A program made the translations under genes and the position numbers. 32,491 nucleotides of DNA, taken from positions 4,207-36,697 of the forward strand of contig PMWT01000167.1 of NCBI GenBank assembly GCA_003166025.1, written 5' to 3'. The notes below the pieces were generated by a model that was given only the letters and a program-made list of their open reading frames with translations, searched no databases and was not told the origin of the DNA. Source of the DNA: Acidimicrobiaceae bacterium. Its GTDB lineage: Bacteria > Actinomycetota > Acidimicrobiia > Acidimicrobiales > Palsa-688. Of the stretch, positions 6,819-32,491 are shown one piece after another; the stretch's first letter is position 1; each line of letters starts with the position of its first letter.

Positions 6819-7819
6819 TACCGTGCCTCTCCCGCGCCGAAGGTGTCGATCATGAGCCGCACGTCGTCGCCGAGCGGGTAGAGGACCGGGCAGGTCGCCC
6901 CGTTGGCGATGTACTCCCCGACCTTGGCCCGGCATTCCTCCGGCGTCCCGGTCGCCGAGACGGCCTGCACCGCGTCGTCGGGAATGAGCTTCATGGCCGC
7001 GCGGATCTCCTCCGGGCCGGCCGGCCAGGTCAGCACCTTGCCAATGGCCTCGATCAGCGCCGGATCCACGCCGCTGGCCGCCATGATGTGCGGCTGCTGG
7101 CCGAGGTACTGGGTGAGCAGCTCGCGGGCGCGGTCCAGGGCGAGATCCCGGTCGTGGTCCATCGAGCAGACGATCAGCTGCGGCCGGTCAATGTCGCCGG
7201 CCGTTCGCCCGGCCCGCGCCGCGCCGGCGCTCAGGGCCTCCAGGGCCCGCGCGGTGTACTGCGGGGTCACCATGTAGTTGAGCAGTACGCCGTCGCCGAT
7301 CTGCCCGGCCAGCTCCATCATCCGCATGCCGGTGGCGCCGATGTAGATGGGCACCTGCCGCGGCGACCGGTCGCCGTGCACGATGTCCAGCGCGACGTCG
7401 TCGAGGTGGACGTACTCGCCGTGATAGGTGACATGCTGCAGCGCGAGCAGCTGCCGGGTGGCCTCGACGATCTCCCGCATCGCGCGCAGTGGCTTGCGCC
7501 GGTCCACGCCTACCTTGGCGGCCAGCGGCTCCCACCACGCGCCGAGCCCGAGGATGACCCGGCCAGGGGCCAGCTCATCCAGGGTGGAGAACGTGGCGGC
7601 GAGCAGCGCGACATTGCGCGTCCACATCGAGACCACCCCGGAGCCGATCTTGATCCGGCTGGTCACGCCGGCGTACGCGGCCATCGGCACCGTGGCCTCG
7701 CGGGCCAGCCTGCTCTCGGCCTGCCAGACCGCCTCGAAGCCGCGTGCCTCGGCGTAGCGGGCGTACTCCATGCTCTCGGCGATCGAGTGCTTGTCCTGCA
7801 GGTAGAGCGCGACCCTCAT
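6818..7819 (-). CDS. LLM-class flavin/F420-dependent oxidoreductase
   Basis: 333-residue luciferase-like protein starting [21 protein letters not shown], with [10 protein letters not shown], a [21 protein letters not shown] segment and [13 protein letters not shown], resembling methylenetetrahydromethanopterin reductase-like enzymes. Its ATG overlaps the TGA of the SsnA-like gene by four bases (ATGA), and its stop overlaps the next ATG, so translation of the three genes is coupled. Cofactor F420 is likely for an actinomycete but FMN is not excluded. Its substrate is unknown. It differs clearly from the LLM protein at 2230-3225, so the two are not a recent duplication. Confidence 0.87.
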
Positions 7820-30428: not shown

Positions 30429-30475
30429 ATGGCTGTGATCGAGAACAGCGGTCGGTCGATGCAAGGAAGCGCTGA
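30377..30475 (+). CDS. Possible 32-residue upstream ORF overlapping the ABC ATPase start
   Basis: ATG 30377 with a near-perfect Shine-Dalgarno (AGGAGG, 5-nt spacing) opens [19 protein letters not shown] and ends at TGA 30473-30475. It overlaps the ATPase gene in another frame. The ATPase ATG at 30429 has only a weak GAAG before it, so this ORF may deliver ribosomes to the ATPase start (candidates 30429, 30459 or GTG 30480). No similarity recognised; the peptide itself may have no function. Confidence 0.4.
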
Positions 30476-31340
30476 CCCTGTGGTACGTTCCGGCGTGGCA
30501 ATTTCCGTACCATCGGCCGACGGGCCCGCCGACGGTATCGCCATTACCGGCCTGAGCAAGGAGTTCCGGATCCGGCGCACGACGGTGTGCGCGCTGGACG
30601 GGGTCGACCTTCACGCCGGTCGTGGCTCGTTTGTGGCGTTGCTGGGGCCGTCGGGCTGCGGCAAGTCGACGGTGCTGCGGATCCTCGCCGACCTCGAGCG
30701 CCCGACCGAGGGGAGCGTCCTGGTCCACGGGGAGACGCCCGATGCCCTCCGGGCCGCTCACCGCCTGGGCATCGCCTTCCAGGACGCCGCCCTCCTGCCG
30801 TGGAGGTCGGTGGTGGCCAATATCCGCCTGCCGCTCGAGATCAGCGGCATGAAGGTCAACGATGCTGCCATTTCCGACCTGATCTCTCTCGTAGGGCTCA
30901 AGGGTTTCGAGCAAGCCCGGCCGGCTCAGCTCTCCGGTGGCATGCGCCAGCGGGTCGCCATCGCCCGGTCTCTGGTGGTTGAGCCCGAGATCCTCCTGCT
31001 CGACGAGCCCTTCGGTGCCCTCGACGAGATGACCCGCCAGCGCCTCAACATCGAACTTCTGCGGATCTGGGCCGAGCGGGCGTCCACCACCCTGCTGGTG
31101 ACGCACTCGATCAGCGAGGCCGTCTTCCTGGCCGACGCCGTCGCGGTCATGACCGCCCGGCCCGGCCGCATGCGGGCCGTGGTCGAGGTCGACCTGCCCC
31201 GGCCGCGCACGCCGGACATGGTACGCACGCCGAAGTTCCACGCACATTGCGACGAGCTGAGCGAGCTGCTGTTCAATGACGGGTTACCTCCGAGTGGCGA
31301 TGACGTCAGCGGCGACGGGCTCGGCGGGGAAGAGATCTGA
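30429..31340 (+). CDS. ABC transporter ATP-binding protein, SsuB/TauB/ThiZ type
   Basis: 303-residue ATPase of the nitrate/sulfonate/taurine/hydroxymethylpyrimidine importer family. Walker [10 protein letters not shown] (about residues 73-81), Q-loop [13 protein letters not shown], signature [16 protein letters not shown], Walker [17 protein letters not shown] and switch His in [15 protein letters not shown]. The first 35 residues are not conserved and the start is uncertain (30429, 30459 or 30480). The downstream permease is of the matching type and is preceded by a TPP riboswitch, so the importer probably carries a thiamine precursor. This gene lies upstream of the riboswitch and so need not be controlled by it. 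Confidence 0.88.
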
Positions 31341-31445
31341 ACGCCGGCAGCTAAGCGGTTGACCTGGCGTTCGCCGGGCTAATGACGGCCCCCCAAGTCC
31401 TAGTACCCGAGCGGGGGTATGCTGTGGCGAAGTACCAACCCGCAA

Positions 31446-31532
31446 ATGACAGGGGAGCGCTTCGGCGCTGAGAGTGCGGCAAGACCGCAGACCCTTGTAC
31501 CTGATCTGGGTAATGCCAGCGAAGGGAGTCAG
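31446..31532 (+). promoter_or_regulatory. TPP riboswitch (THI element)
   Basis: Conserved aptamer parts occur in order: GGGG at the 5' P2 side, a TTCG-capped hairpin, CTGAGA (31468-31473), a variable hairpin (TGCGG/CCGCA), ACCCTT, then ACCTGATCTGGGTAATGCCA and GCGAAGGGAGTCA. P1 closes as TGAC (31447-31450) with GTCA (31528-31531). The aptamer's 3' AGGGAG (31523-31528) is also the ribosome binding site of an ATG at 31537, so ligand binding would hide it; control is probably translational. It marks the downstream transporter as thiamine-related. Confidence 0.95.
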
Positions 31533-31536
31533 TCTC

Positions 31537-31590
31537 ATGGCCAGCACCAGGATCCTCGGGCGGAGCACTCGCGCCGGTGACGGCAAGTGA
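31537..31590 (+). CDS. 17-residue leader ORF between TPP riboswitch and permease
   Basis: ATG 31537, 8 nt after the AGGGAG of the riboswitch, encodes MASTRILGRSTRAGDGK and ends at TGA 31588-31590. That stop overlaps the GTG start of the permease (GTGA). The permease start itself has no good Shine-Dalgarno, so translation through this ORF could transmit riboswitch control. Seen: frame, spacing and overlap. Inferred: coupling. Confidence 0.6.
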   Translation: MASTRILGRSTRAGDGK

Positions 31591-32491
31591 CCGTTTTAGA
31601 CGCGCCCAGGCGAGCCAAGCCCAGACGAGCCAAGCCCAGACGAGGCCAGCCCAGACGAGGCCAGCTCAGGCGGGCCCAGCCCACCGGCTTCCCGGCGCTG
31701 GGACAGCTGGTGCCGGCCCCGTCGGCGGCGCGTTCGGCCCGCAGGTGGTTGCGCACCGCTACCCCCCCGTCCCTGCTCATCGCCGCCGGCCTCGCTCTGT
31801 GGCAGCTAGTGGTGACCGCCGACAGCATCAACCCCCAGCTTCTCCCCGGCCCGTGGCTGATCGTCCGGTCCACTTGGGACGACCGGGCCGACATCTGGCC
31901 GGCCATCGGTGTGACCACCGAAGAGGCCGTCCTAGGTATGGCCGTCGCCGTCGTGGTGGCGGTGCTCATAGCGGTGTCGATCGACTCGTTCCGTAGCGTG
32001 CGGGGGAGCTTCTACCCGGTAATAGTCGCCTCTCAGACGGTCCCGATAATCGCTTTGGCGCCGCTCGTGCTGGTGTGGTGGGGTTTCGGCCTGCTCCCCA
32101 AGATCGTCCTGGTCGCCCTGTTCAGCTTCTTCCCGATCACCGTGGGGCTGGTGCAGGGGCTGGGGTCGGCCGACCCTGACGCCATCAACCTGCTGCGCAC
32201 GATGCGTGCCGGGCGGTGGCAGCTCCTGACCCGGGTGAAATTGCCAAACGCCCTGCCTCAGTTCTTCACCGGCCTAAAAATCTCGGTGACCTACGCCTAC
32301 AGCGCGGCCATCGTCGCCGAGTTCGTCGGTGGCATGCAGGGTTTAGGGGTCTACATGACCGAGGCCATACACAATGCACCGGTCCGGATGGACCTGGTGC
32401 TGGGGGCCGTGTTCGTGATCGCCTTGCTCACCATCGCGCTCTTCGCCCTCGTGGGCGTCATCGAGCGCCTGGCCACGCCGTGGCGGGCCCG
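31587..32491 (+). CDS. ABC transporter permease, SsuC/TauC/ThiX type (3' end beyond window)
   Basis: At least 301 residues, open to the window end. After a basic N-terminal tail come hydrophobic segments starting LLIAAGLALWQLVVTADSI, then the family sequence QLLPGPWLIVRSTWDD, YPVIVASQTVPIIALAPLVLVWWGFG and the EAA-type loop LRTMRAGRWQLLTRVKLPNALPQFFTGLKI, and GVIERLATPWR, near the usual C-terminus. GTG 31587 is used because it overlaps the leader stop and is the first start in frame. The tail holds five 5-residue repeats (PRRAK/PRRGQ). With the TPP riboswitch upstream this is most likely the membrane part of a hydroxymethylpyrimidine/thiamine-precursor importer; the binding protein should follow outside the window. 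Confidence 0.88.
   Translation, partial: MTVLDAPRRAKPRRAKPRRGQPRRGQLRRAQPTGFPALGQLVPAPSAARSARRWLRTATPPSLLIAAGLALWQLVVTADSINPQLLPGPWLIVRSTWDDRADIWPAIGVTTEEAVLGMAVAVVVAVLIAVSIDSFRSVRGSFYPVIVASQTVPIIALAPLVLVWWGFGLLPKIVLVALFSFFPITVGLVQGLGSADPDAINLLRTMRAGRWQLLTRVKLPNALPQFFTGLKISVTYAYSAAIVAEFVGGMQGLGVYMTEAIHNAPVRMDLVLGAVFVIALLTIALFALVGVIERLATPWRA
31605..31679 (+). repeat. Five-unit 15-bp tandem repeat inside the permease N-terminus
   Basis: Units such as CCCAGACGAGCCAAG and CCCAGACGAGGCCAG repeat in frame five times, encoding PRRAK, PRRAK, PRRGQ, PRRGQ and LRRAQ. Seen directly. Confidence 0.9.

Follow-up and report, generated by a model that had tools for sequence, protein, structure and literature searches.

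The locus examined here raises the question of how a TPP riboswitch may control a transporter gene when the sole Shine-Dalgarno (SD) sequence under its control belongs to something else, namely a leader open reading frame (ORF) of 17 codons lying between the two. The window, i.e., the whole stretch of 32,491 nucleotides analyzed, ends within the gene concerned, which encodes an ABC transporter permease. The first-pass annotation of this DNA had proposed that control of the transporter passes through translation of a short leader peptide. Below, we discuss the riboswitch, the origin of the leader, the gene cassette behind it, and the start of the permease, and weigh the other explanations as the evidence on them appears.

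The Riboswitch and Its Ribosome-Binding Site

The elements at the upstream side of the locus are the following.

31441 to 31544, plus strand: TPP riboswitch (RF00059), with the aptamer core from P1 to P1' at 31446 to 31532; from cmscan and mapped Rfam pairs.
31522 to 31528, plus strand: SD sequence AAGGGAG, covering the 3' strand of P4, J4/1, and the first P1 base; from the mapping and the anti-SD duplex.
31418 to 31424, plus strand: possible -10 element TATGCTG just 5' of the aptamer, proposed from the sequence.

The riboswitch matches RF00059 over the full length of the model (positions 1-105) and scores 68.4 bits in cmscan (E 1.3e-11), where the gathering cut-off is 54.3; a genome search finds no other TPP riboswitch in the source genome. 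With the Rfam structure mapped onto the sequence, P1 falls at 31446-31450/31528-31532 and P4 at 31500-31503/31522-31525; helices P1 to P5 have standard pairs, apart from A-G as the outer pair of P1, G-A as the final pair of P4, and a pair of which one partner is deleted. By the same mapping, AAGG (31522-31525) forms the 3' side of P4 and GUCAG (31528-31532) that of P1, and the SD thus lies within the aptamer. Its duplex with the standard anti-SD amounts to -8.2 kcal/mol, and AGGGAG (31523-31528) stands 8 nt from ATG 31537, exactly where the first-pass annotation had placed it within the riboswitch 3' strand; all its coordinates are right.

A ribosome-binding site (RBS) in the aptamer core (AAGGGAG in P4/P1) with a start codon 8 nt further on assigns the riboswitch to direct translation attenuation. 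Actinobacteria are the group in which control through an SD inside the aptamer occurs most often, and many TPP riboswitches use it, the purine-rich 3' part of the aptamer being the RBS (Barrick and Breaker 2007, PMC2258182). From the structure, TPP binding and a ligand-dependent accessibility of the RBS are predicted. Transcriptional control via a terminator was rejected, as the search found no intrinsic terminator in 31330-31800. On the promoter side, TATGCTG also stands 5' of the riboswitch in a genome of the same family (G018), and the 33 nt preceding the aptamer share 25 of 33 positions with a genome of the same genus (G001); a scan for the sigma-70 consensus gave no match. From 31441 to the ATG, identity with the G001 riboswitch reaches 92%. 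The riboswitch itself is ordinary, and it is the arrangement of a stub followed by a permease that is unusual.

TPP Riboswitches Across the Order

This can be appreciated from a survey of 89 TPP riboswitches of the order, aligned by position, in which we classed together all loci where an ORF of 100 aa or more starts no further than 18 nt from the SD in the aptamer, or runs off the locus. By script, 80 of the 89 belong to this class, and L010 (98 aa) and L024 were added by eye, so that in about 82 of 89 TPP loci the in-aptamer SD directly starts a full gene. Nearly all TPP riboswitches in the order carry the SD at this same place inside the aptamer, and the shortest ORF found at such an SD is the 17-codon leader of the window.

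Two further loci deserve mention. On the minus strand of L028 (1395-1517, genome G058), the SD of a TPP riboswitch serves an ORF of 38 codons from its ATG (40 from an in-frame GTG), whose TGA overlaps, as GTGA, the GTG of the next ORF (by eye thiO-like), and this GTG has a strong AGGAGG of its own; the same architecture may have arisen here independently. In G002, again of the same genus, a riboswitch piece at a contig end (L147, 1-1474) is directly followed by the GTG of a 474-aa membrane transporter, which by look resembles a cytosine/purine permease and may be another B1-type transporter under a TPP switch within the genus.

The Leader as a Remnant of ykoE

The small ORF behind the riboswitch comprises two overlapping features.

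31537 to 31590, plus strand: leader ORF, MASTRILGRSTRAGDGK, 17 codons followed by TGA at 31588-31590.
31537 to 31582, plus strand: remnant of the ykoE 5' end, 46 nt; from blastn and ungapped matches with G001.

In G001, a full-length ykoE gene, with the N-terminus MASTSTTGQRTRRG, begins at the corresponding ATG behind the same riboswitch and SD. The G001 protein at the homologous ATG (MASTSTTGQRTRRGRRWRTVDIVVAS) belongs to PF09819 (E 1.4e-37), and its gene is followed by a second ORF that overlaps it as GTGA and by a third, at the positions of ykoD and ykoC. We take the names ykoE, ykoD, and ykoC from the Pfam family, the gene positions, and general knowledge. The same riboswitch also starts ykoE in two genomes of the family (G004 and G018), with proteins that are 80-82% identical.

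The homology extends into the window's leader and then breaks off. By blastn, window positions 31408-31582 are 84% identical to G001 over 176 nt, and the similarity stops at 31582. Of the ungapped bases after the ATG, 28 of 39 match G001, a level that none of the 64,661 other window positions (both strands) reaches. The leader scores +0.25 bit per codon in its own frame, the other frames being negative. Elsewhere in the source genome, ykoE was found neither by a single-protein search nor with the PF09819 profile; because the assembly is 92% complete, the case for its absence is strong but not absolute.

As for the peptide itself, the substitutions between the leader and the G001 ykoE are distributed 2/3/3 over the codon positions (12 codons), and this lack of a third-position bias gives no sign of selection on the leader peptide. 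The first-pass annotation had named leader conservation in related genomes as a check and a leader that is not conserved as counting against its idea, and the latter is what is seen: none of the genomes searched has the leader as a uORF, and the homologous start, which in the same genus opens the full-length gene, belongs to ykoE. With this start being that of ykoE and the peptide without a selection signal, a dedicated conserved leader peptide is ruled out. To judge by its homology, the leader ORF is a stub of ykoE and not an evolved leader peptide; its amino acid sequence is probably irrelevant, and its role would be that of a landing pad for ribosomes.

Operon Replacement Beneath the Riboswitch

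Synteny with G001 resumes downstream (L002:4656 = L083:7330), just behind the last ORF of the G001 transporter operon, which stands at the ykoC position and ends at 7309. Between the two shared blocks, the source genome carries genes for the permease, an ATPase, and an NMT1/THI5-like SBP. These are 80%, 76%, and 79% identical, respectively, to the cassette of L062, a locus of an Acidimicrobiaceae MAG that has no TPP riboswitch at this place and none found in its genome. The source SBP matches binding proteins of its own kind in PDB, 4nmy and 3ix1, the latter being a formylaminopyrimidine-binding protein. The simplest history is a replacement of ykoEDC by an ABC cassette for thiamine or pyrimidine precursors, in which the initiation region and about 15 codons were kept; the left join lies about 46 nt into ykoE.

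Two other origins of the junction were considered. That the riboswitch was carried along with the permease is ruled out, as the closest relative of the permease (L062, 78-80%) lacks a riboswitch and G001 has the riboswitch without a close permease. An assembly chimera is thought unlikely: the flanking blocks match a single contig of G001, and the sequence is interrupted at one place only (2 N), 3' of the permease, at a point where permease and ATPase follow each other in L062 as well. Among 397 genomes of the order, no second copy of a close permease was found, and the junction is known from one assembly, which is incomplete and 6.6% contaminated.

Some observations on the surroundings can be added. 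The two N (L002 2199-2200) lie just beyond the window end at the permease/ATPase border and represent a scaffold gap, leaving the permease end and the ATPase start incompletely known. A further ABC ATPase gene lies just 5' of the riboswitch, at 30429-31340 of the window, and shares about 50% identity with the L062 cassette ATPase; the riboswitch-permease unit thus has a related ATPase gene on either side. The neighborhood upstream of the riboswitch is not common to the window and G001.

Where the Permease Starts

Three features bear on the start of the permease.

31587 to 32489, plus strand: ABC transporter permease, start uncertain, extending past the window end; PF00528 (BPD_transp_1), E 5.4e-29.
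31573 to 31584, plus strand: hairpin GCCG-GUGA-CGGC, GNRA-type, -6.0 kcal/mol, partly hiding GGTGA; found after the fact.
31604 to 31683, plus strand: 15-nt tandem repeat, 5.3 copies (TRF), the junction filler that separates the ykoE remnant from the conserved part of the permease.

The permease is 80% identical to L062 from 31749 onward and runs to the gap, after which ATPase and SBP follow. In its frame, a TGA at 31578-31580 makes GTG 31587 the first possible start. This GTG (31587-31589) overlaps the TGA of the leader as GTGA (31587-31590), exactly the overlap with a 17-codon ORF that had been described at first pass. The permease start at 31587 is itself uncertain. An overlap of 4 nt makes termination-reinitiation the simplest route into the permease. 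In two relatives, G015 and G031, the start codon of the related permease gene shares bases with the stop codon of an SBP gene in front of it (GTGA and ATGA, respectively); elsewhere, therefore, the permease is a coupled second gene, and the stub here takes the place of the first.

On one point the first-pass annotation went too far. It had called the leader SD the only good ribosome site and the permease a gene lacking its own, yet GGTGA (31576-31580), 6 nt 5' of GTG 31587, reaches -7.4 kcal/mol in a duplex with the standard anti-SD, almost as much as the leader SD with its -8.2. These values refer to the standard anti-SD, the 16S 3' end pattern of the host not having been found in the source assembly. 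The former statement is overstated and the latter doubtful. This SD-like element also counts against coupling, which may be dispensable. It is conceivable, if unlikely, that the leader is translated as an irrelevant passenger while the permease initiates independently at GTG 31587 via GGTGA, with riboswitch control being weak or exerted only through mRNA stability or Rho. Besides the spacing and strength of GGTGA, the missing selection signal on the leader would suit such a situation, as would the total opening energy over -11 to +2 at the permease start, which is ordinary for the window. However, GGTGA sits within the hairpin at 31573-31584, a structure matched in stability by 18 of the 32,479 12-mers of the window, and would have to be melted. 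Moreover, the leader start is the only one inherited from a riboswitch-controlled gene, and the permeases of G015 and G031 again speak for coupling.

A different doubt concerns the stretch behind the overlap. None of the frames shows a coding signature across 31587-31709, which consists largely of the 15-nt tandem repeat, and GTG 31710, 13 codons 5' of the conserved block, may therefore be the start of the permease. In that event, 31590-31709 would be untranslated tandem-repeat filler, and the overlap, accidental, would drop out of the initiation of the permease. The stretch contains TTA and AGA, codons seldom used by the genes nearby, the in-frame coding signal turns positive from 31710, and candidate starts of homologous permeases lie 0-43 codons before the conserved block. 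If it is translated, the repeat would yield PRRAKP/PRRGQ repeats at the permease N-terminus. We nonetheless consider the later start rather improbable: its SD is very weak (-3.9 kcal/mol, equaled or bettered by 44% of the AUG/GUG of the window), a promoter search was negative, and the permease frame is open from 31587.

Finally, the leader and permease frames differ by one base in a G+C-rich, repetitive region, and a sequencing error or a programmed frameshift might join them into a permease with a YkoE-derived N-terminal tail from ATG 31537. A fusion product has in fact been found as a minor share for uPPE2-PPE2 (PMC11260477). Here, such a hidden fusion appears very improbable, as TGA 31578 (in the permease frame) and TGA 31588 restrict the possible shift sites, no slippery sequence was noted, and the assembled sequence runs from riboswitch to permease without an N.

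Proposed Mechanism and Significance

The best explanation, to which we assign a probability of roughly 55%, is direct translational control of the leader by the riboswitch, followed by termination-reinitiation into the permease, in the wake of the ykoEDC replacement. Ancestrally, a TPP riboswitch with its SD in the aptamer would have driven ykoE, the first gene of the ykoEDC transporter operon. An ABC cassette (permease, ATPase, and NMT1/THI5 SBP) then replaced ykoEDC, and the riboswitch would still gate the old ykoE ATG. When TPP is bound, P4 and P1 would mask AAGGGAG, and when it is absent, ribosomes would load. These would read the 17 codons, open the hairpin at 31573-31584 en route, stop at TGA 31588-31590, and reinitiate at the overlapping GTG 31587, so that the permease is made. 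The sequence itself establishes the riboswitch, the SD position, the homology of the leader to ykoE, the lack of ykoE in the assembly, the exchange of the operon, and the GTGA overlap, whereas the response to TPP, the translation of the leader, and reinitiation are inferred.

The earlier idea of control via the leader thus survives in part. The riboswitch SD serves the small ORF first, the GTGA overlap is present, and the uPPE2-ppe2 pair offers a precedent; the dedicated leader peptide has to be given up. More tentatively, and with the balance tipped slightly against it, one may see here a regulatory uORF caught at birth, in which the initiation region and first codons of a lost gene have become a riboswitch-gated pad handing ribosomes to an unrelated transporter gene.

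Physiologically, thiC/ThiC was not found in the source genome, nor in G001, G002, G004, G018, and the genome of L062 (G099); 13 of 14 control genomes were positive. These six organisms are probably auxotrophs for the thiamine pyrimidine, and without thiC the source organism would need uptake.

Riboswitches with the SD in the aptamer are hard to give a new gene, because the start codon must remain a few nucleotides away. If our reading is true, a stub with reinitiation solves this without rebuilding the switch. It would also explain in a simple way how uORFs linked to riboswitches, uPPE2 among them, can originate, showing the birth of a regulatory leader ORF from known parts, and it would supply a rule for annotation, namely that a short ORF behind a riboswitch may be what is left of a gene that was replaced. 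As far as the literature searched goes, no earlier report describes a TPP riboswitch that works via a uORF, and the present one would be the first.

Comparison with Known Systems

The closest parallel is found in Mycobacterium tuberculosis, where the uORF uPPE2 behind a B12 riboswitch, with an AUGA overlap, is required for PPE2, mainly by termination-reinitiation (Kipkorir et al. 2024, PMC11260477). In both cases, the riboswitch-controlled SD serves a short uORF whose stop overlaps the main start (AUGA there and GTGA here). We also count as a likeness the translational OFF riboswitch and termination-reinitiation, both of which are presumed for the present locus; the main gene there has no strong SD, which may also apply here, where GGTGA pairs at -7.4 kcal/mol but lies partly in a hairpin. 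The ligands differ (B12 versus TPP), as does the position of the masked SD, which lies in the expression platform there and inside the aptamer core here. Furthermore, uPPE2 is partially conserved, whereas the uORF discussed here is the remnant of a replaced gene.

With the direct translation-attenuation TPP riboswitches of Actinobacteria (PMC2258182), the locus shares the RBS in the 3' part of the aptamer, a start within about 10 nt, and the lack of a terminator. Their first ORF is normally the structural gene, however, while here it has 17 codons and the structural gene comes next.

The TPP riboswitch-ykoE(DC) units of G001, G004, and G018 have the same aptamer, SD, and start, and the 5' end of the G001 ykoE is homologous to the leader DNA. 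In contrast to these units, the locus retains ykoE only to about codon 15; everything beyond, including the remainder of ykoEDC, has been lost and replaced. A related transporter under a TPP riboswitch, on the other hand, occurs in the riboswitch-SBP-permease operons (ThiXYZ/NMT1-THI5-like) of G005, G015, G031, and G017. There, the SBP gene comes first and is initiated at the riboswitch SD, whereas in the source genome it comes last, with a gene stub in its place.
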